Positions 1,426 to 41,096 of a DNA stretch of 41,096 nucleotides are shown piece by piece. The stretch comes from Planctomycetota bacterium (GTDB lineage: Bacteria > Planctomycetota > Phycisphaerae > Sedimentisphaerales > Anaerobacaceae). The stretch spans positions 1-41,096 of the forward strand of contig DAOWID010000084.1 in NCBI GenBank assembly GCA_030641115.1, given 5' to 3'. Both the position numbers and the translations under genes were made by a program. The notes below the pieces were generated by a model. It was given only the letters and a program-made list of their open reading frames with translations. It did no database searches and was not told the origin of the DNA. Every line of letters begins with the position of its first letter. Positions within the stretch are counted from its first letter, which is position 1.

Positions 1426-1550
1426 TTAGTTCCTGTTGTGGAAAGCCAAAACTGGCCATGTCACCCCTGCGAAAGCAGGGGTCTACACCGAAAAAGCTGG
1501 ATTCCTGCTTTCGCAGGAATGACAAACGTTGTTTCCGCAACAGGAACTAA
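1426..1550. repeat. Family A palindromic element with 19-bp outer inverted repeats
   Basis: TTAGTTCCTGTTGTGGAAA / TTTCCGCAACAGGAACTAA flank 'tgtcacccctgcgaaagcaggggt...attcctgctttcgcaggaatgaca'. Confidence 0.88.
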
Positions 1551-1564
1551 TTACTCGACACTCG

Positions 1565-4635: not shown

Positions 4636-7059
4636 TCAATTTACGTTTGAAACCGGAACGCCAGTCTCAATGAGCTTGGTCTTAATAAGCAGAACACCAA
4701 CTGCCAACTGTGGATCCACCGCCAGAGTCTCTTCCGCCGTATGTCTTTTTAGCGATTCTTTGCTCTCGTCGCGGTCCGCCTGAACCAGTATGCTGTTATC
4801 CCTCTGAAGATTCAGCATGTTCTTGAGTTCCTCACTTGTTAATTTGATTTCCACATCTGGGGCAACCCCCCAATCCTTTGTGCCAGCTTTTTTCGCTGCA
4901 TCCCGGCTCTTGACTCTTTGGCCGGAAGGCAAATGGTAATATGCCATCGTATATTTGAGTTGTCCGCCAGAGCGGAAATGTATTATCCCCTGCACGAGAC
5001 CTTTACCGTGAGTCCTCTGACCTACCAAGACTGCACGCTCATGTTCCTTATCCGCCAACGCCCCTGCCACTATCTCTGAGCCACTGGCCGAGCTGGAATT
5101 TATCAGTACAACAAGCGGATAATCTGGATGCGTTCCCTTCTCATTTGCTACCTTCAAATCGCCTATCCTGCCAACCCCAGCCTGAGTTGTGACAATCAAT
5201 CCGTCTCTGAGGAATTCGTCGGTTACGCCAACGGCACTCTCAAAAAGCCCGCCCGTGTTGAGTCGCAAATCCAAAATCAATCCCTTCAAGCCTTCCTTCT
5301 CGAGCGTGCTGAGCGCCTTTTCAAGGCCTGGAACGGTCTTGCCCGAAAAGCTCGTGATGCGGACGTAACCGATTTTGTCTTGCTGGTCAATCATATACAG
5401 CCAACCAGCATCTTCTGTCCTCTGCCAGCCGCGAATTGTCGGGACAGTTATTCTGTCTCTGGTTATGGTAATATCTCTGGTTTCGTCTTCGCCGGGTCGC
5501 CTTATGGTCAATATCACTTTCGTGCCTTTGGGACCGGTGATCTTTCGAACCGCACACATAAGGCTCATATCCTTTGTCTCAACACCATCCACGGCCTCAA
5601 TTACATCCTCTGCATCGAGGCCGGCTCTGTACGCGGGCGTATCAGGCAGCAAGCTTGCGACTGTCAACAATCCCTTCGGCTTGCCAATTTCTATCCCGAT
5701 ACCCGTAAACTCATTGGTCATCATCTTCTCGAAATCCTGCACTTGCTTGGGCCAAACGATAACCGTATATGGATCAAGTGCGGACAGCGCCGCTTCTGCG
5801 AAATGCGCAATCAGTACTTGCTCAGACAATTTCACAGTTGTTGTGTTCAGCGCCAGCACCTTTTCAAAAATTTCTACAAACTTATCTTTACTGAACCCTA
5901 TCAGTGACTGGCTAATTTCATCCGAAAGCGCTGCCAGAGCTGCTCCCCACGCCGTAAGCTCGTGGGTGTCAGGCGGCGAAAAAGAACTTTTGGAATCATC
6001 GCTTTGTGAATTTTCCGAAAATGATACCGCCATTACTTCCGCCAACAATTCACAACGCCTGATGGCTTTGCTCGCCATCTGGCCGTAATCCATAACGCTG
6101 ACGTAACGGTAATTCAGCGCCTCGATTGCGTGAAGAAATATCTCTTTCTTGATCCCCTCATAGCGCTCTTCGTGTGTCTCACAGGGGCTGTCTTGAAAAG
6201 AGATTACAATAGCCGCCTTATCTATAAGCTGTTCGGCGTAATCTAAATACGCCTCATTGTTCGGATCACTTGCCAGCAGCCAATAGTAGCAATTCGTGTA
6301 TGCATCAAGCCATTTGCCTTCTAACTCAAACTCGCCAGCCTTGTCTATCGTCCTTTGGAAGGTCTGCTTCACGAATGGTCTACCAAGAAGCTCACTTCTC
6401 TGTTGGTCGTCTGCAAGCGCACTGGCGTTGGCAATAACAGAAAGCACCGCAGAGATATCATTTACATCGTTTGCATCACTTATGTCGCTTACATCGTTTA
6501 CATCGTTGGCATCACTTATGTGGCTTACATCGTTTACATCATTTGCATCTTCTTTGTGCGGTGCAGTTCGAAGTTTGTCCAGCTCATCCAATTGTTCCTG
6601 ATATGCAGCCTCACGAGCTGACTCGCGCTGTTCGCTTATGTCCTTGTATTGCTGGACAATCTGCGCTAACTGGTTGAGCTGGGGTTGTGCAGTTGAGCCT
6701 GGGCTCGCGCTTAATTCGTGCTTGATCAGTTCACCGGCGGCATCGAAATCGCCCTGGCAGATTAGCTCGCTGGCTACTTCAACAACGCTGGCAGACGCTG
6801 ACGAAGACTCTGATACGTCAGCAACGTTGGGTTCTGTTGATTCAGACTTGGCAACTTCGACAGGCGCACGTTTAGAAAAAAAGCCGTAACCAGCGGACCA
6901 ACAGGACAGCATAAGAACACAAGAACACAAAAACGCCAACAGCAAAGCCGCTCCTGCGAATCTCGTCCGACGATGCCACGCTGATGGACCTGTAACTTGT
7001 GATTTATGGGCCTTATCTTCAGTTTCGAATAATGAGTTGCTTGATTTTTGTGACGACAA
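4636..7059 (-). CDS. S41-family C-terminal processing peptidase with PDZ domain; TTG start
   Basis: PDZ 'GIGIEIGKPKGLLTVASLLPDTPAYRAGLDAEDVIEAVDG' and catalytic region 'GLILDLRLNTGGLFESAV...SSSASGSEIVAGALADKEHERAVLVGQRTHGKGLVQ'; TTG start with AAGGAG upstream; N-terminal TM. Confidence 0.92.
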   Translation of the reverse strand: MSSQKSSNSLFETEDKAHKSQVTGPSAWHRRTRFAGAALLLAFLCSCVLMLSCWSAGYGFFSKRAPVEVAKSESTEPNVADVSESSSASASVVEVASELICQGDFDAAGELIKHELSASPGSTAQPQLNQLAQIVQQYKDISEQRESAREAAYQEQLDELDKLRTAPHKEDANDVNDVSHISDANDVNDVSDISDANDVNDISAVLSVIANASALADDQQRSELLGRPFVKQTFQRTIDKAGEFELEGKWLDAYTNCYYWLLASDPNNEAYLDYAEQLIDKAAIVISFQDSPCETHEERYEGIKKEIFLHAIEALNYRYVSVMDYGQMASKAIRRCELLAEVMAVSFSENSQSDDSKSSFSPPDTHELTAWGAALAALSDEISQSLIGFSKDKFVEIFEKVLALNTTTVKLSEQVLIAHFAEAALSALDPYTVIVWPKQVQDFEKMMTNEFTGIGIEIGKPKGLLTVASLLPDTPAYRAGLDAEDVIEAVDGVETKDMSLMCAVRKITGPKGTKVILTIRRPGEDETRDITITRDRITVPTIRGWQRTEDAGWLYMIDQQDKIGYVRITSFSGKTVPGLEKALSTLEKEGLKGLILDLRLNTGGLFESAVGVTDEFLRDGLIVTTQAGVGRIGDLKVANEKGTHPDYPLVVLINSSSASGSEIVAGALADKEHERAVLVGQRTHGKGLVQGIIHFRSGGQLKYTMAYYHLPSGQRVKSRDAAKKAGTKDWGVAPDVEIKLTSEELKNMLNLQRDNSILVQADRDESKESLKRHTAEETLAVDPQLAVGVLLIKTKLIETGVPVSNVN
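6454..6549. repeat. In-gene tandem repeat, about 36-bp unit (12 aa, DANDVNDVSDIS)
   Basis: Protein reads DANDVNDVSHIS-DANDVNDVSDIS-DANDVNDIS. Confidence 0.85.
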
Positions 7060-7284: not shown

Positions 7285-8229
7285 TCACATGCACTCAGCC
7301 GCCTTGCCGGCACAGCCAAGAACGTGCAATTTGTGCTTCACCATTTCCTTGATAGCCTCTCTGCCCGGACCGAGGTATTTGCGCGGGTCGAACTCACGCG
7401 GAACTTCTGCAAAAACTTGCCTGATTTTTGCCGTCAGCGCCAGCCGTAAATCCGTATCAATGTTAACCTTGCAGATTGCCATCTTTGCAGCTTTGCTGAC
7501 GGCCTCTTCCGGAACGCCCATTGCGTTGGGCATGTCGCCGCCGTACTTGTTAATAAGATCGACGAACTCCCTCAACACACTGCTTGAGCCGTGCATAACC
7601 AGCGGAAATCCAGGCAGTCTGTCTGCTATCTCCTGTATCACGTCGAAAGCGAGCTTCGGCTCGGTTTTGAACTTATAAGCGCCGTGACTCGTCCCACAAG
7701 CTACCGCCAGCGAATCGCAGCCGCTCTTTTCAACAAACTCCGCGGCCTGGTTCGGGTCAGCCAAGTGTTTGCGCACGTCCTCTACTCCAACAACGTCCTC
7801 TTCGATTCCGCCCAACTGGCCCAGTTCTGCTTCGACAACTACATCTCTGGCATGTGCGTATTCGACTACCTTCTTTGTCTCTGCAATGTTTTCTTCAAGC
7901 GGCAGCTTTGAAGCATCTATCATCACCGACGTAAAGCCGGCGTCCACGAATTGTCTGCACGTCTCAAAATTATCCCCATGGTCCAGGTTTATGGCGATCG
8001 GAATGTCCGGATTCTCCTCGACCACCACATCAATGATAGCTCTCAAATAGCTGATCTTCGCATATTTGCGTCCACCTCTGGAGACCTGCAGGATAAGCGG
8101 GGCCTTCTCTTCGGCCACACCATCTATAATACCCTGCGTGATTTCCATGTTGTTCACATTGAACGCACCGACCGCATAGCCATTTTTATAAGCCATCTCG
8201 AACATCTTTTTGGTATTCACCAACGGCAT
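7285..8229 (-). CDS. fba: Fructose-bisphosphate aldolase, class II; start trimmed to the ATG at 8229
   Basis: 'MPLVNTKKMFEMAYKNGYAVGAFNVNNMEITQGI', 'IPIAINLDHGDNFETC', 'KVNIDTDLRLALTAKIR'; RBS AAAGGAGAGCACTATG; the longer ORF to 8355 reads into a repeat. Confidence 0.95.
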   Translation of the reverse strand: MPLVNTKKMFEMAYKNGYAVGAFNVNNMEITQGIIDGVAEEKAPLILQVSRGGRKYAKISYLRAIIDVVVEENPDIPIAINLDHGDNFETCRQFVDAGFTSVMIDASKLPLEENIAETKKVVEYAHARDVVVEAELGQLGGIEEDVVGVEDVRKHLADPNQAAEFVEKSGCDSLAVACGTSHGAYKFKTEPKLAFDVIQEIADRLPGFPLVMHGSSSVLREFVDLINKYGGDMPNAMGVPEEAVSKAAKMAICKVNIDTDLRLALTAKIRQVFAEVPREFDPRKYLGPGREAIKEMVKHKLHVLGCAGKAAECM

Positions 8230-8261
8230 AGTGCTCTCCTTTACCAATCGACTATTTACTA

Positions 8262-8385
8262 CTTGGTTCTTGTTGCGGAAACAGGATTTGTCATTCCCGC
8301 GAAAGCGGGAATCCAGTTTTTTGGCCCTGGCCCCCTGCTTTCGCAGGGGTGACATTAGCGGCTTTTGTTCTCCGCAACAAGTACG
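8262..8385. repeat. Family A palindromic element upstream of fba
   Basis: Outer arms TGTTGCGGA / TCCGCAACA; core 'tcattcccgcgaaagcgggaatcca...ccctgctttcgcaggggtgaca'. Confidence 0.88.
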
Positions 8386-8471
8386 ATTTATTATTTCCTA
8401 TTCACTGTGTTCGCTGACTGCTGTCCTGATTTTTTTCGGCTTCTGTTCTCATTCTTTTCAATCGTCAATAA

Positions 8472-8494
8472 TCAATAATAAATAATCAATTATA
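8472..8494. repeat. AT-rich 23-nt direct repeat overlapping a stop codon, copy 2
   Basis: TCAATAATAAATAATCAATTATA, identical to 4-26. Confidence 0.85.
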
Positions 8495-11400
8495 GCCGCC
8501 GCCCAGCTCCATGTACCTTCTCGGGCCAATCACCAGTTCCGGCACACCCGCGGGCCACAGACTAAATACTACTGAATGTTGGTCCAGCGACTCATCCGCG
8601 CTGTACGTAAGACCGAGGCATATCCTGTGATACCGCCTTATAAGCGTTACATCGCTGCGTATATTCGCACCGTAGTCGAAATCAAACTGCTGCGAGAACA
8701 CCAACGTGTATCGCGGGTCAAGCACATAGGTAGCGGCAAACGTAAACGCATTCGAGCCCTTTTCGCCGAAACCACTATCGACACGCCTCAAATATCTACT
8801 GCCTATATAATAACCTAAATTGGGCCAGCGCAGGTGCGAAAAACCAATATTAAATTGCTGCACCACTCCACTTTGCATGTCAAAATTCATATCGGACAGT
8901 ACCGCGGTCGTATCGCTCATGCGCCAGATATAGTCGGTGCTGAAATAATTGCGCCTCGGCCCAAATACATCGCTGCTGCGTCTATCCTTGGGCGGTGCCA
9001 TCATGCTGTACCTATTTACGAGCGGGATATACGGTTTGTTCCAGATGAACCGGTCCGGCCCACCGGCGGTATCACCCGAATCATTTACCCACGTAACGTC
9101 CATATCCAGCCGCATCCAGTCAACGGTCCGCTGTTTACCCGCGGGGCCTCGCCTGGTCTGTAATCGCTGAGAAATACCCACGTTCAATGTATCACGCTGC
9201 TCCACAACCGAGTCGCTCTGAGCATAGCCGACGGCTGTCACGTGCGGCTTGATGACGTGCCGCAACTGGTTCAAATCCCAAAAACGCGATTTGGCATCGG
9301 GAAAAACCTTCCAATATGGTTGCGCTGATGCGCGCACGCCAGCTTCGCCGAGCCAGACTCCATCTTTGTCGTCCACAGTCGAGCCGTCGATATCCGTCTC
9401 AAAGCCGACACCGTCCTCGTACCCTAACGTCCCCGCCACAAAAGGCACGACTTTCGACTTGCCAAGCCTCACCGGCATATCGACCTCGTTCCTCGTCGAT
9501 GCAAACGTGAAGAAATCTTCTGACATCGTGTCGTCCTCGGCCAGACGCTGACGGAATCGGCTGAGCTGGCTATCGCTGTAAAAGGTAAAGTTATCGTCAA
9601 GAAACGACTGACCCGTCCAGTGAAACTCCGCGCTGGGCAATTCTTCCACCTTATCAACAAAATCGTTCAGCCGCCATTTACCCAGCAAGGCTAATGCCCA
9701 GTTGTCTTCCAGCCGCTTCACGTGGACAATCGTTTCCTGCTCTTTGTCTGTGTTGAATTCACTGCGATAATACTGTTCTATGAAATTCGGATCAGATGCG
9801 TAACTGGCCTCGGTCGTAAACTGCCAGTTGTAAGGCAGGAACTGCCTGTGCTGCCAGCGGACCCGGCCACGAAGCTCACGCGGCGGCTCGAGGCCTCTTC
9901 GGCTGTCGTCCCTGCCAAGTCTGTCTTCACCGTGGTCGTCGATTATATAGCCTATCATCCTGCCGAAGTAATTCTCCCGTTCGTAGTTAATTTCCACGCC
10001 ACTACCGGGCCCGCGCTTGCTGTAATAGTCCAGCGAAACGGTGCTCTCTGTTCCCTCTGGCTCGCGCAATCCTAACAGCCGGGCCAGATGCCATCGCGTC
10101 TCAAGCGATGTGCCCCACGTTCCGTCATGACCGGCATGCACGCCTTTGAGTGGAATATCAGGCCGCTGCAGATTACTGCGCACGGAAGGCCAATAGAAAA
10201 TCGTCCTATCATACATCTTAAAACGCACATCACGCATCTGCACGTCATAACTACTATCGGAAATCCTGTCGCCTTGTTCGTCAATAGGGGTCGTATCCGT
10301 GATAATTACATTCGAAGCGTTGAGTGAAATCTGGGGCACATAGAATTCGCTGGTTGTCAAAGTGATATTATCAAACGCAAATTGATTCGCTGCGAGCTGT
10401 CTGAGTTTCGGTGCCCTGACATAGATCGGAATCCCACGGGACACATCGAAGTTTCTCATCACGACATTTGACGCCAGCGCCTTTTTTCGTTGGAAATCGT
10501 AGTATATTTCCTCGACCCGCGTTGTCCGCTGGCCTTGTGTCATCACGACCTCGCCGGACATATATATTGCTCTTATGGCGCCGCTGGTCAAAATATCTTC
10601 GACACTTGCTGCCTGCCGGGATTCTTGGTAGGCCTTTAAGGCTTCTTCGGAGTAGAATATGACCGCGTTATCAGCCTGCAACTCTACTAGTAGCAGCCGA
10701 CCGGTTGTCTCATCAAGTTCCTGCCACGACATATAGATTCCGCCGATCGCCGTGACAATCTCTGCGTCCCTATCCAGCTCGAATTGCAGCGGGACCTCAC
10801 CCACAGGCGCTATATTGACCGGATACCCGAAGCGAGGCTTTTTTTCTTTCGGCTCGGCAACTACTTTGGCGGGCTTTGCGGCAGCACAGGATTTGTCATT
10901 CCCGCGAAAGCGGGAATCCAGTTTTTTGGCCCTGGACCCCTGCTTTCGCAGGGGTGACATTGGCGGTTTCTCCGGTCCCACTTTTTCCTCTGCCTCCAGC
11001 CGGAACTCCGGCTCGACAGTCGTAACCGCCGCAAGAGCCTTTGTGTATAGCTCGAACCCACGAGGGTCGGCAACCTCCTTCTTATCCGCCGTCACAAAAA
11101 CTTCGCCGCTAACACCGAACCGGACCACCGTCGCCTGACCATCCTCAATAGCTGTCTGGCGCAAATTGGCGGTTTCCGTGGTTTCGGCTTTCTTGACCGA
11201 CACATTGCCCCGCAGATACATGCGACCTTCATAATCAAGACGAGCACTGTTACCGGATTCGGTTTTTATAGCCTCCAGCCACGCCACGGCGGTATCGCTG
11301 GTAAATAGACCAGCTCCTATCGACATCGAAAATCCGTCCCGGAACACCAGAACGTGGACGGCAGCGCGGCCGGTCCTTAGCTGATAGATTGTGAGCTCTC

Positions 11401-11569
11401 GCCCGGCCAAGTGCAGGTCCTGGCTAAGCCCACCCTGGCCGCCCGGCTGGACATCCGCCGCCTGGCGTCCTTCAGGAGAAACCAAGTCCTCTCGGCCCAG
11501 GATACCGGGCAAAGCCGGCTCACCCAGCAGAGCTAAGAAACCCAGAATAAGTAGTCCCTTACTTCGCAT
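8486..11569 (-). CDS. lptD: LptD/OstA-like outer-membrane beta-barrel protein; start trimmed to the ATG at 11569
   Basis: Signal peptide MRSKGLLILGFLALLGEPALP; OstA-like region 'GAIRAIYMSGEVVMTQGQRTTRVEEIYYDFQRKKALASNVVMRNFD'; long C-terminal barrel-like region with aromatic alternation. Confidence 0.7.
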   Translation of the reverse strand: MRSKGLLILGFLALLGEPALPGILGREDLVSPEGRQAADVQPGGQGGLSQDLHLAGRELTIYQLRTGRAAVHVLVFRDGFSMSIGAGLFTSDTAVAWLEAIKTESGNSARLDYEGRMYLRGNVSVKKAETTETANLRQTAIEDGQATVVRFGVSGEVFVTADKKEVADPRGFELYTKALAAVTTVEPEFRLEAEEKVGPEKPPMSPLRKQGSRAKKLDSRFRGNDKSCAAAKPAKVVAEPKEKKPRFGYPVNIAPVGEVPLQFELDRDAEIVTAIGGIYMSWQELDETTGRLLLVELQADNAVIFYSEEALKAYQESRQAASVEDILTSGAIRAIYMSGEVVMTQGQRTTRVEEIYYDFQRKKALASNVVMRNFDVSRGIPIYVRAPKLRQLAANQFAFDNITLTTSEFYVPQISLNASNVIITDTTPIDEQGDRISDSSYDVQMRDVRFKMYDRTIFYWPSVRSNLQRPDIPLKGVHAGHDGTWGTSLETRWHLARLLGLREPEGTESTVSLDYYSKRGPGSGVEINYERENYFGRMIGYIIDDHGEDRLGRDDSRRGLEPPRELRGRVRWQHRQFLPYNWQFTTEASYASDPNFIEQYYRSEFNTDKEQETIVHVKRLEDNWALALLGKWRLNDFVDKVEELPSAEFHWTGQSFLDDNFTFYSDSQLSRFRQRLAEDDTMSEDFFTFASTRNEVDMPVRLGKSKVVPFVAGTLGYEDGVGFETDIDGSTVDDKDGVWLGEAGVRASAQPYWKVFPDAKSRFWDLNQLRHVIKPHVTAVGYAQSDSVVEQRDTLNVGISQRLQTRRGPAGKQRTVDWMRLDMDVTWVNDSGDTAGGPDRFIWNKPYIPLVNRYSMMAPPKDRRSSDVFGPRRNYFSTDYIWRMSDTTAVLSDMNFDMQSGVVQQFNIGFSHLRWPNLGYYIGSRYLRRVDSGFGEKGSNAFTFAATYVLDPRYTLVFSQQFDFDYGANIRSDVTLIRRYHRICLGLTYSADESLDQHSVVFSLWPAGVPELVIGPRRYMELGGGYN
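10886..10966. repeat. Family A core inside the LptD-like gene
   Basis: 81 bp matching 8281-8361 with two substitutions by eye. Confidence 0.9.
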
Positions 11570-11757
11570 ACTAATCTCGTATCGCGTGACTAAGAGCTCG
11601 CAGAATCCAAGCCGGTTCACACTTGACGAGATTATAGCCGCCTCGTCCCACAAAGCCAGCAAAAATCGCCCTCATAGGACGACTGAGATTGCTTCGGTCG
11701 CTTCGCTCCCTCGCAACGACAATGGCAGATAACACCTTTGCTTTGTGACGGCTTTCC

Positions 11758-11766
11758 TGGTATACT
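11758..11766 (+). promoter_or_regulatory. Possible extended -10 promoter (TGGTATACT) upstream of pilT
   Basis: TGnTATACT about 73 bp upstream of the pilT ATG; no convincing -35. Confidence 0.35.
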
Positions 11767-11838
11767 ATTATTATCGGCCCAGAAAGGCTGAACAGTCAGG
11801 CGTGAGCGTTTCCACACAAAGACCATTGGAGGCAAGAC

Positions 11839-12975
11839 ATGGCCGAAGAATACCCCACTTCAGCAAAAGTATACCCGACCACAGAGCTTGGAAAGCTCAG
11901 CATTATTGATATGTTCGCCTACTTCGAAAAGCACGGTGCGATGCGAGTCTCAGATCTTCACATCAAAGTCGGCGCACCACCCACTTATCGCATCGACGGC
12001 AGCCTCGTAAAACTCAAAGGCTCAACCGTAACGACCCAGATAGCGAAGCAGCTTATCTACCCGCTTTTGAGTGAAAAGAACCGGTACACATTCCAGAACA
12101 AGAACAGCGTCGATTGCTCCTATCGATATGGCTCATTGCAGTTTCGAATAAACGTCTTTAGGGAAAACGATGGAATGGCTGCTGCAATACGAGCACTATC
12201 GCTGGATATTCCAAAAGTAGAAGAGATCGGCTTTCCAAATAATGTCTGGGAAGATATTATCAACCGCAAACATGGCCTCGTGCTAATGACCGGAATCACT
12301 GGCGCCGGCAAATCCACGACTATCGCGGCGCTAATTGGTCGAATCAGCGAAAAAAGTGCCTGCCGAATTATCACCGTCGAAGACCCCATTGAATACATCT
12401 TTCAGCAGAAATACTCCCTCATCTCGCAACGCGAGGTCGGAAGGGACGTTGAATCCTTTCACGACGGACTGAAGGAAATGATGCGAGAGGACCCTGACAT
12501 AATATTTGTCGGGGAAATGCGGGACCCCGAGACGATAGCCATGACACTTATGGCTGCCGAGACCGGCCACCTGGTCTTCTCCACATTGCACACGAGAGAC
12601 GCTACCGGCACGGTGACACGCGTCCTTGACTACTTTGAAGCCGGCCGGCAGGCAGAAGTCCGCAACCAGCTCTCACTTGGGCTCGCCTATATTATCAGCC
12701 AAAAGCTTGTCCCTAAAAAGGACGGAACCGGCAGGATTGTGGCGATGGAGATTCTCAACAATAACTACGCCTGCGCCAACTTGATACGCACCGGCAAAAC
12801 AGAGCAGCTCTATTCACAACTGCAAACCAAGACTCGAAACAAGCTGGGTGAAAAAATGATGACGATGGAAAAACATCTGGCAATGCTGGTAAAACAAGAC
12901 AAGGTTGACCTGCTGGAGGCAAAAAAATGGGCCAACAATATCAACGGCTTCGTTGACTGTATGCAGCACGATTAA
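11839..12975 (+). CDS. pilT: PilT/PilU-type twitching motility ATPase
   Basis: Walker A 'GITGAGKSTTIAAL', 'VEDPIEYIF', Walker B 'REDPDIIFVGEMRDPETI', 'AAETGHLVFSTLHT'; RBS GGAGG. Confidence 0.93.
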   Translation: MAEEYPTSAKVYPTTELGKLSIIDMFAYFEKHGAMRVSDLHIKVGAPPTYRIDGSLVKLKGSTVTTQIAKQLIYPLLSEKNRYTFQNKNSVDCSYRYGSLQFRINVFRENDGMAAAIRALSLDIPKVEEIGFPNNVWEDIINRKHGLVLMTGITGAGKSTTIAALIGRISEKSACRIITVEDPIEYIFQQKYSLISQREVGRDVESFHDGLKEMMREDPDIIFVGEMRDPETIAMTLMAAETGHLVFSTLHTRDATGTVTRVLDYFEAGRQAEVRNQLSLGLAYIISQKLVPKKDGTGRIVAMEILNNNYACANLIRTGKTEQLYSQLQTKTRNKLGEKMMTMEKHLAMLVKQDKVDLLEAKKWANNINGFVDCMQHD

Positions 12976-34262: not shown

Positions 34263-34418
34263 CGTAGCCGTTCACGGGGTATGAGTCGCGTTTTTGGGGT
34301 CATTGCGAGGAGTTTACGACGAAGCAATCTAAAATGCAACGATTGAGATTGCCACGGCCCGCCAAAGGCGCACCTCGCAATGACATAAAACGGCACATTT
34401 GCCCCGTGAACAGTTGCC
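34263..34418. repeat. Nested family B element, copy 1 (short)
   Basis: Outer arms 'cgtagccgttcacgggg' / 'ccccgtgaacagttgcc'; inner 'gtcattgcgaggag ... gaagcaatct ... cctcgcaatgac'. Confidence 0.85.
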
Positions 34419-34450
34419 CACATACAAACCTATCACCAAAAAAGCACAAT

Positions 34451-35884
34451 TTACACCTTAAACTCCTCCGGTGCAAACTCAACCTTCCTACCCTCTATTA
34501 TTGCGTCGTTGGCCTTCAGCACGGCAACTGCCGTCTCGTATCCGACCTCGCCGGGGCAGTTCAGCTTCGCCTTACCCCGAATCGCATCAAAAAAGTTCTT
34601 CAGGTGAGGCTGATGAACGTGCTTCGTGCATCTCTGCAGAAGCGGATGTGGCCAGAGAACCTTGGTACCGCCAAGTACAAGAATTCTCTTATCCTTGCAC
34701 ACTGTAGGCAGCTCGAATTGCCCGCCAATCAGTTTCTGCCTGATGCAGTTGTTCCATCTCTTCATCACCGCATCATCGGACCTGGCGTAGTCCTCGATGC
34801 AGACCCAGCCATTATTTTCATCGGTGGCAAATTCCGATATCAACAACGTGCCGACGTCCCCCATAAACGTCTCGTAGTACTGGCCGTAGGTGCCCCAGCA
34901 GGTAGTGTTGAGAACCTGGTAAAACGCCCGCACACTACCTTGGTCGGTCTGGTAATCATAGATTGACATCACGTTTTCGTTGTGCTGGTAGTTGAAATAA
35001 TCATTAGCGCCGCTGGCCAAAACCGACTTCGGCTTCACCTGGCCAAGAAACCAGTTGAAGACATCTATCTGATGCGACCCCAGATCACCCAGCGGACCAC
35101 CGCCGAACTTCTCATACCAACGCCAGTTCACCAGCTCATCCATAGAGTCATAACCGTGCTTTTTCAGTGCTGCTTCATCCATCCATATCCTCTGGTTTGG
35201 CAAAGGAACCTTATGTGAGGACACGCTTCGGTTCCACTGGGCGTTAATGTTCAGCAGCTTTCCCAAGAGTCTGTGCTCACGAATGAGTTTCTCAGCGACC
35301 TGGTACCGTGGATTACTCCGCCGCTGATGGCCAATCTGCAAAAGCCTTTTCGTCTCTCTCGCTGTCTGCACCATCTTTTTGGCGTCTTGAAGGTTGTTCG
35401 ACATTTCCTTTTCGCAGTACACGTGCAGCCCCGCTTTGAGGCAGGCAATAGTCATCGGGGCGTGCAGCCAATCGGGAGTGGTGATGATCGCCGCATGAAG
35501 GTACTTCTCCTTGGCGAGCATCTCTTCATAGCTCTCATACGCGGTGACATCGTGCTTCCTGGCGATCTTGAGTCTTCTGGAAATGTATTTCAGTTTGTAC
35601 GGGAAGATATCGCAGACGGCCTTGAACCGAATGCCGTCTGTCTTATCCGTCCCGGTCTCAAAAATGGCGTCCATGAGTCGGCCGCACTGCACCCCCAAGC
35701 CGATCAGAGCCACGTTCATATTATCAACCTTACGGTTGTCGCTCTGGCCAAAAACTGCCGGATTTAGTACCAGACCTGCCCCTGCAGTCGCGGTCGATTT
35801 CAAGAATCTGCGACGGTCAACACAGTCACCCGCGCTTTCATTATGTTCTTTGTTATCTGTCACGACTCTGCCCAATGTCGTCAT
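34451..35884 (-). CDS. Tat-exported Gfo/Idh/MocA family oxidoreductase
   Basis: Tat motif 'DRRRFLKSTATAGAGLVLNP'; 'MNVALIGLGVQCGRLMDAIFE', 'GLHVYCEKEMSNNLQDAKKMV'; ATG at 35884 chosen over 35932. Confidence 0.9.
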   Translation of the reverse strand: MTTLGRVVTDNKEHNESAGDCVDRRRFLKSTATAGAGLVLNPAVFGQSDNRKVDNMNVALIGLGVQCGRLMDAIFETGTDKTDGIRFKAVCDIFPYKLKYISRRLKIARKHDVTAYESYEEMLAKEKYLHAAIITTPDWLHAPMTIACLKAGLHVYCEKEMSNNLQDAKKMVQTARETKRLLQIGHQRRSNPRYQVAEKLIREHRLLGKLLNINAQWNRSVSSHKVPLPNQRIWMDEAALKKHGYDSMDELVNWRWYEKFGGGPLGDLGSHQIDVFNWFLGQVKPKSVLASGANDYFNYQHNENVMSIYDYQTDQGSVRAFYQVLNTTCWGTYGQYYETFMGDVGTLLISEFATDENNGWVCIEDYARSDDAVMKRWNNCIRQKLIGGQFELPTVCKDKRILVLGGTKVLWPHPLLQRCTKHVHQPHLKNFFDAIRGKAKLNCPGEVGYETAVAVLKANDAIIEGRKVEFAPEEFKV

Positions 35885-35927
35885 TAAGAATTTAGAGCCT
35901 ATAACAAAATGAATATATGTTTGTGTC

Positions 35928-36050
35928 GTCATCCTGAGCGAAGCGAAGGATCTGGGTTACAGATGAGAACCTTCGTACTTTCTTTAGCCAGATTCTTCGC
36001 TTCACTCCGTTCCGCTCAGATCTGTCCTTGAGCAAAACGAAGGAATGACA
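35928..36050. repeat. Family C palindromic element between the two Tat-Gfo genes
   Basis: 'gtcatcctgagcgaagcgaaggatctgg ... ccttgagcaaaacgaaggaatgaca'. Confidence 0.7.
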
Positions 36051-36099
36051 TTATTTGATTATGTTAGACGTTCTTAGCTCTTGCCCTGCGTAGGCTATT

Positions 36100-37464
36100 C
36101 TAAACCTCAAATTCGCCTGGTTTGAACTCGACCTTCCGGCCCGTTTCGACTGCTTCGTTGACCTTTAGTACGGTGACAGCCGTTTCGTATCCGATTTCCG
36201 CAGGGCAGTTGAGTTTCGCCTTGCCGCGAACGGCATCGAAGAAGTTCTCGAGGTGAGGCTGATGGTAGGGTTTGTCCATCGTCACCGGCAAATTGTACTG
36301 CGCCACCGGCACCGTCTCGCGCACATCGAGCAATGTCGCACCGGCTTCGGGCTTTTCTTCCTTCTTAGGGGGCTCGCTCAAGTAGCCCAGCTTGACCCAT
36401 CTGGCCCACTCAGGTGCCGCCGGTTCCTGATACACATTACCCCTGCCGGCAGATTCCGATATCGCCAATGTCCCCTCATCACCCATGAACGTTTCAAAAT
36501 ATCCCTGGCTGCTGTTGGTCGTTATCGTCTGATAGAATGCTCTAATCGCTCCCTTCTTATTAGCTGCGTATTCGTAATCGTACTCATAAATGGCCATCAC
36601 CGTATCGTACCACTCACGGCCGTCCCAGTAGTCAATGCCTCCGCTGGCCATGACGGATTTGGGAGTCGCACCGAGGAACCAGTTATATATGTCGATCTGG
36701 TGCGAGCCGAGATCCACGATGGGACCACCGCCGAGCCCCTTGTACCACCGCCAGTTCTTGAACTGCTGCATCGACTTGAATCCAAACTTGTCAAGCGTTG
36801 CCTGGTCGATGACGGCCTTTTTAGGCCAGAGCCTAAATTCGCACTTCGCTTTGCTGCGATTCCACTGTCCATTGATCGTCGTAATCCGCCCCAACAGCTT
36901 GGCCTCTTTGACTAACTTCTCGTAGCAGAATATATATCGCGGGTTGCTGCGACGCTGATGCCCAATCTGCAGCAGCTTTTTGGTTTGCCTGGCCGCCTCG
37001 ACCATCTTGCGGGCGCCCTCGAGAGTGTTGGACATCTCCTTTTCACAATAGACGTCCAGGCCGGCCTTCAGACATGATACAGCGTGCTCAGCGTGCCAGA
37101 AATCCGGCGTGGCGATTAGCACCGCATCGAGGTCTTTTTCCTTGTCCAGCATCTCTTTGTAGTCCAAATAGGTATTGTGCTCGTGCTTATACGCCTTCAG
37201 TGTGCGTGAGACCCGCCTTTGATTATAAGCCTCCCAGATGTCACATACCGCCTTGAAGCGAATGCCCGGCATCTTCAGGCAGGCTGTCATCAACACTTGT
37301 CCCTGTTCGCCTCCGCCGAGCAAGGCCACGTTTATGTCATCTACCTTGCTGCCGGCTGCTTGTCCCAAAATCGCCGGCGAAAATACCAAGCCCGCCCCTG
37401 CTGCCGCCGTAGAATGTAGGAAACTACGTCTGTTGATCTGTCTGTTATTCTTCTGCTCGTTCAT
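36100..37464 (-). CDS. Tat-exported Gfo/Idh/MocA family oxidoreductase
   Basis: Tat motif 'NRRSFLHSTAAAGAGLVFSPAILGQ'; 'GLDVYCEKEMSNTLEGARKMVEAARQTKKLLQIGHQRRSNPRY'. Confidence 0.92.
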   Translation of the reverse strand: MNEQKNNRQINRRSFLHSTAAAGAGLVFSPAILGQAAGSKVDDINVALLGGGEQGQVLMTACLKMPGIRFKAVCDIWEAYNQRRVSRTLKAYKHEHNTYLDYKEMLDKEKDLDAVLIATPDFWHAEHAVSCLKAGLDVYCEKEMSNTLEGARKMVEAARQTKKLLQIGHQRRSNPRYIFCYEKLVKEAKLLGRITTINGQWNRSKAKCEFRLWPKKAVIDQATLDKFGFKSMQQFKNWRWYKGLGGGPIVDLGSHQIDIYNWFLGATPKSVMASGGIDYWDGREWYDTVMAIYEYDYEYAANKKGAIRAFYQTITTNSSQGYFETFMGDEGTLAISESAGRGNVYQEPAAPEWARWVKLGYLSEPPKKEEKPEAGATLLDVRETVPVAQYNLPVTMDKPYHQPHLENFFDAVRGKAKLNCPAEIGYETAVTVLKVNEAVETGRKVEFKPGEFEV

Positions 37465-37683
37465 TGTACTCTTGTTAACCTCACAAATTTAACAAATTGA
37501 TTTTGACTCTACTCGTCTACATTATTGTCCCGTTGTTGGTTGCCGTCAAGGAGACGTTCTGCAATTTTTATTTAGGGGTCGTCATTGACAACTCTGGCAG
37601 CGTTAGCATCAACCATCGCTACAAGTATTATTGCGCCGCAGGCGGATATGTTACACAAGACAGCAGGAATAATCATACAAAAT

Positions 37684-37901
37684 GCGTAACCGTTCACGGG
37701 GTAAATGTGCTGTTTTATGTCATTGCGAGGTCCGCCTTTGGCGGGCCGCGACAATCTCAATCTTTACATTTTAGATTGCGGAGCCTGTTGCGAGCGAAGC
37801 GAAGCAATCCCAGGATGCGAGTTTGCTTCGGCACTTTGTGCCTCGCAACCGTAAAACTCCTCGCAATGACCCCAAGAACGCAACTTATACGCCGTGAACG
37901 G

Positions 37902-37906
<5 letters not shown>
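37684..37906. repeat. Nested family B element, copy 2 (long, opposite orientation)
   Basis: Outer arms 'gcgtaaccgttcacgggg' / 'gccgtgaacggttacg'; same inner core plus about 65-70 bp extra. Confidence 0.85.
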
Positions 37907-39323
<1,417 letters not shown>

Positions 39324-40932: not shown

Positions 40933-40964
40933 TTCTCTTTCTCCAATGGCTAAAATTTAGGTTA

Positions 40965-41096
40965 ACTAGTTCCTGTTACGGAAACAGCATTCGTCATTCC
41001 TGCGAAAGCAGGAATCCAGCTTTTTCGCCGTAGACCCCTGCTCCCCGCTTCCGCGGGGACAAGTTTACACCTGCGAAAGCAGGTACAGGGGTGACA
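40965..41096. repeat. Family A element, truncated by the window end
   Basis: 'actagttcctgttacggaaacag' arm, then 'tcattcctgcgaaagcaggaatccagc...ccccgcttccgcggggacaagtttacacctgcgaaagcagg'. Confidence 0.85.

Follow-up and report, generated by a model that had tools for sequence, protein, structure and literature searches.

An lptD-like gene in the stretch of planctomycete DNA analysed here (41,096 nucleotides, hereafter the window) very probably carries a non-autonomous CGTC-type REP heterodimer (10886–10963) in its coding sequence, where the dimer survives in frame in a tolerant linker after entry by the route favoured below. The insertion is real and in frame, and it is probably tolerated. 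Its survival can be ascribed to a length of whole codons, to the lack of a stop in that frame of the dimer and to the position in a linker that is predicted to be unstructured and was already variable in length. We infer that the insert is translated and that the protein keeps its function in spite of it; how the insert entered the gene is likewise a reconstruction.

The REP dimer and its host gene

The features of the gene and of its insert are as follows.

8486–11569, minus strand: lptD-like outer-membrane assembly gene with the insert (Pfam LptD match, 19-sequence alignment, structural model)
10820–11010, minus strand: linker DNA, hypervariable and predicted disordered, holding the insert (alignment columns 245–350; model residues 186–249)
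10886–10966, coding strand minus: CGTC-type REP heterodimer in lptD (identity to 8281–8361; absence from a near-identical contig)
10895–10917, plus strand: REP unit 1, tag TGTC, stem ATTCCCGC/GCGGGAAT, loop GAAA, tail CCA (hairpin scan)
10936–10958, minus strand: REP unit 2, inverted relative to unit 1, tag TGTC, stem ACCCCTGC/GCAGGGGT, loop GAAA, tail CCA (hairpin scan)

The repeat at 10886–10966 shared 79 of 81 bases with the intergenic copy at 8281–8361, the mismatches lying at 10936 (A versus C) and 10962 (G versus A), and it was in phase 0 at both ends of an uninterrupted minus-strand ORF. The preliminary description had reported both the near identity, with two substitutions, and translation of the repeat without disruption of the frame, and was correct on each point. 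The 25-mer core of the repeat occurred four times in the window at up to three mismatches and was absent from shuffled sequences. In the protein the insert, which contains much Lys and Arg, reads PMSPLRKQGSRAKKLDSRFRGNDKSC, flanked by EEKVGPEKP and AAAKPAKVV. Its certain extent is about 10886–10963, as the right junction is ambiguous within a CGGTTT that is common to the native sequence.

Both units consist of an 8 bp stem and a GAAA loop, with stems starting AT in unit 1 and AC in unit 2. The tags face outward, the units at 10895 and 10936 are followed by the unpaired tails CCAGT and CCAGG, respectively, and the whole dimer had a computed fold of −40.4 kcal/mol. The outer inverted arms of its intergenic relatives are absent from the lptD copy, which therefore does not define the mobile unit.

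The ORF passed the threshold for Pfam LptD (PF04453; 31.8 bits against a cut-off of 22.4), and its product has an OstA-like N-terminal part, a linker, a second beta domain and a C-terminal LptD region. The open frame and family-wide conservation suggest that the gene works. Across 19 aligned homologues the length of the linker varied by tens of residues (about 45 extra in L153), and the inserted peptide was present in one sequence, that of the window. The linker is rich in Pro, Lys and Glu. An AlphaFold2 model of low overall confidence (mean pLDDT 43.3) contained beta-rich regions at residues 51–183 and 251–464 (blocks mostly 55–86) on either side of the linker, while residues 186–249 had pLDDT values below 50 and no secondary structure. 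This segment is thus predicted to be unstructured, at the low confidence of the model as a whole, and encloses the insert (residues 201–227 of the modelled chain).

Distribution of the repeat and its genic copies

The genome from which the window derives contained 87 exact pattern matches to the repeat, and exact copies were found in 59 of 89 family genomes, with counts of 0 to 135 per genome. The sampled stretches of the window's genome held 112 units at 80 loci, with at least two units at 32 of the 80, and the dominant pair, ATTCC.. and ACCCC.., had a fixed spacing. The constancy of GTC over the 112 units holds by construction, since the scan pattern demanded it, whereas the preceding T was not imposed. 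The dominant subfamily is an element of about 130 bp in which outer inverted arms (AGTTCCTGTTGCGGAAA / TTTCCGCAACAGATACT) surround the REP dimer. The window contains the following intergenic elements and an adjoining gene.

8249–8384, plus strand: full-length element between fba and lptD, intergenic and in the subfamily of the lptD copy (REP dimer plus outer arms)
1429–1564, minus strand: second full-length intergenic element, dimer core 1458–1526
40963–41096, plus strand: third intergenic element, truncated where the contig ends; its second hairpin holds one more, nested palindrome
7285–8229, minus strand: fba, the ORF of which runs 5' through the repeat

Nearly all sampled copies in the window's genome were located outside real genes, and open frames of at least 130 residues covering a unit were for the most part antisense or extended a gene at its 5' or 3' end. 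The ORF of fba is one such extension. Its aldolase domain begins only at residue 46, the likely start codon (8229–8227) is downstream of the repeat, and the frame continues 5' across the repeat only because the dimer contains no stop codon in it. Upstream of fba the peptide belongs to a spurious 5' extension, in line with the preliminary description. Peptides of the 'SRFRGNDK' type at gene starts (fba, dapB) usually reflect repeat DNA and not protein, which is a warning for annotation.

Only two clear deep genic dimers were detected among the 80 loci, one in lptD and one in an RNase R gene (G000:C344:2949-3017, L127). The latter belongs to another REP subfamily, is read in a frame different from that in lptD and falls between the RNB and S1 domains, at their boundary; RNase R proteins of known structure show a gap of about 14–24 residues relative to it. 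When 10 repeat-rich genomes were searched with two dimer frames, no further deep genic dimer was found in the long open frames checked, among the matches listed; these were ORFs that are probably spurious and 5' extensions (of dapB in L236, of a GDSL-lipase-like ORF in L234). A Gfo/Idh/MocA ORF on contig C311 was considered as a third genic case and discarded, as its PDB alignment had no clear insertion. A bias towards one reading frame, raised in the preliminary description, was unsupported and was rejected, because true genic copies are too few, the other clear genic dimer is in a different frame and stops are absent from four of the dimer's six frames. With four open frames, a whole-codon insert will often stay open and no frame bias is needed.

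One further dimer, with a single recognisable outer arm (L005, G000:C184:2969-3045), occupies the 3' end of a truncated ORF that resembles a transposase and looks IS30-like by eye. In several dimers, at 41019–41096 of the window and at L222, L224, L228 and L232, one hairpin houses another palindrome in its loop or stem tip, for example CCCCTGC-[TCCCCGCTTCCGCGGGG...]-CAGGGGTGACA. This suggests that REP hairpins are themselves targets of insertion. At L056 (G000:C176:8287-8312), two REP subfamilies meet in a perfect palindrome, one of them supplying the left context and the other the right, which suggests that dispersed copies have recombined.

The insert-free allele and the route of entry

Close relatives had been proposed as the place to look for an empty site, and such a site was identified on a near-identical contig (JAGMDR010000127.1 of MAG RS_18_13, here G019:C32), which is binned with another genus and carries lptD without the insert. 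Over about 4.9 kb of comparable sequence (window 7793–12779), the two contigs, both from metagenome bins in which strain mosaics are possible, differed outside the linker at one position (7795); past 12779 the contig diverged sharply. Another gene of the window had no match in G019, so the contig is probably a stray in that bin, and G019 as a true near-identical genome was rejected on the same ground. Relative to this allele the insert is a whole number of codons. The linker of G019:C32 reads EAELPVAEAPEEKVKQEKPAEEIAPAKPAKVV and that of the window EAEEKVGPEKP[PMSPLRKQGSRAKKLDSRFRGNDKSC]AAAKPAKVV, and when the native parts of the linker DNA were aligned by hand, the alleles proved to differ also by about seven substitutions and by a deletion of 24 nt. 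Because both junctions can be read, this pair of alleles, one with a genic copy and one free of it in otherwise near-identical DNA, provides a usable site for the question of how CGTC REPs move.

These comparisons bear on how the dimer arrived. The clustering of the linker differences suggests a recombined or diverged linker patch; alternatives are the errors of one template-switching event or strain switching by the assembler. Together with the absence of the private substitutions of the intergenic copy, the clustering makes a diverged, recombined patch more likely than a fresh local copy. An older insert, arriving in a recombined linker patch, fits the data better than a new copy from the neighbour. 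Under the favoured route, a core without outer arms would have inserted in some lineage by an illegitimate or template-switching event, and the linker allele with its insert would then have spread by homologous recombination. At one junction of the lptD insert, 6 bp (CGGTTT) are common to the repeat and the native sequence; a clear target duplication was not seen.

Fresh transposition or copying from the intergenic element 2.5 kb away is an unlikely source of the insert. The two copies are 79/81 identical, share subfamily and orientation, and alone among the copies listed have the spacer variant TTTTTTGGCCCTGG. However, the neighbour's two private substitutions are both missing from the lptD copy and are already present in the insert-free contig, where the fba–lptD element is unchanged. 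Over 77 bp, a copy on contig C440 matches the lptD copy just as well as the neighbour does (two mismatches each), the linker patch contains the additional substitutions and the deletion, and the outer arms are missing. The preliminary description had taken near identity to imply a recent insertion; this is unproven, as near identity indicates only that the copies are close relatives.

There is a small chance that the arm-less REP core moves by an unrecognised transposase-independent route, such as hairpin template switching, and that linker alleles bearing it are then exchanged by recombination among planctomycete strains. If true, repeat-coded peptides would be a standing source of variation in protein linkers.

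REP-associated tyrosine transposases (RAYTs) have been proposed to mobilize GTAG REPs; mobilization of the present unit by such an enzyme was rejected as improbable. RAYT-like Y1 transposase genes are present in 72 of the 89 family genomes, but REP dimers flanked none of 51 RAYT loci (a single unit was found far from the gene in two), and REP copy number was not correlated with RAYT number across the 89 genomes (Spearman 0.05, P=0.67). No RAYT match was obtained in two genomes, both incomplete, that contain 18 and 22 copies of the repeat. The tag TGTC also sets the lptD repeat apart from GTAG REPs with a RAYT.

It is very improbable that the dimer in lptD is an assembly artefact produced by a misjoin at the repeat. 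The window comes from a fragmented bin (490 contigs, 7.2 % contamination), the repeat is multicopy and the alternative contig switches sharply after 12779. Against this, unique lptD flanks are in the right order and frame across a whole-codon insert, and a misjoin would need to depart from lptD and return to it with the frame preserved. Adoption of the peptide for LptD function, for example as a charged spacer, would agree with its frame, its strongly basic character and its place between two beta-rich regions, but is scarcely credible given its occurrence in one of 19 sequences, the insert-free allele in otherwise near-identical DNA and a linker sequence that is not conserved.

Comparison with known palindromic repeats

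CGTC-1 REPs have a (C/T)GTC tag, often TGTC and with TGTC/CCTC variants, an 8 bp stem, a 4-nt loop and a CCA tail, and their stems 'almost invariably' start with A-T pairs at positions 1 and 2 (Di Nocera et al. 2013, PMC3733652). As described there, CGTC REPs form heterodimers with conserved spacers, have many intergenic copies, are sometimes part of larger palindromes and have no dedicated transposase; dimers also occur in genes, in frame, adding 20–30 residues. Neisseria dRS3 (CGTC-1) and Rickettsia RPE-4 and RPE-6 were placed in the CGTC superfamily (PMC3733652). The lptD repeat resembles CGTC-1 in the TGTC on both units, the CCA tails, the inverted heterodimer, the conserved spacing and the lack of RAYT flanking, and differs in the unit 2 stem, which starts AC rather than AT. 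Its host is a planctomycete and falls outside the five phyla given for CGTC REPs in the Results of that paper, the abstract of which names Planctomycetes for both superfamilies. In-frame CGTC REP dimers within genes being already described, the lptD case is a further example, and it indicates that a protein can gain sequence from repeat DNA where an insertion is tolerated. The gene lptD does not appear as a CGTC host in the portions of PMC3733652 drawn on here, its supplementary list aside.

The Rickettsia elements RPE-1, RPE-4 and RPE-6 are likewise palindromic, are found in frame in genes and add a peptide segment (Ogata et al. 2000, 2002, cited in PMC10969869); RPE elements are described as about 150 bp long. 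The lptD repeat resembles them as a palindromic repeat in frame in a gene, whereas a large share of RPE copies is genic and nearly all copies here are intergenic, with two clear deep genic dimers among 80 loci. The named relatives are also Planctomycetota/Phycisphaerae and not Rickettsia. A literature search for the peptide strings returned unrelated text matches only. MITEs are marked by terminal inverted repeats and a target-site duplication; in the comparison with them, the intergenic copies have outer inverted arms while the lptD copy does not. Unit 1 fits ATTCCC-N8-GGGAAT, the motif of Neisseria dRS3, but unit 2 does not; there are no clusters of the Neisseria type and the phylum is different.

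Two other kinds of repeat were observed in the window. A separate dispersed family at 34263–37919 consists of inverted and direct repeats (I2, I6, I8, D8) around CGTAACCGTTCACGG...GGGGTCATTGCGAGGAG, and a tandem array with a 9 bp period (ATCATTTACATCGTTTGCATC...) is located at 6457–6564, within a large minus-strand ORF (4636–7059).
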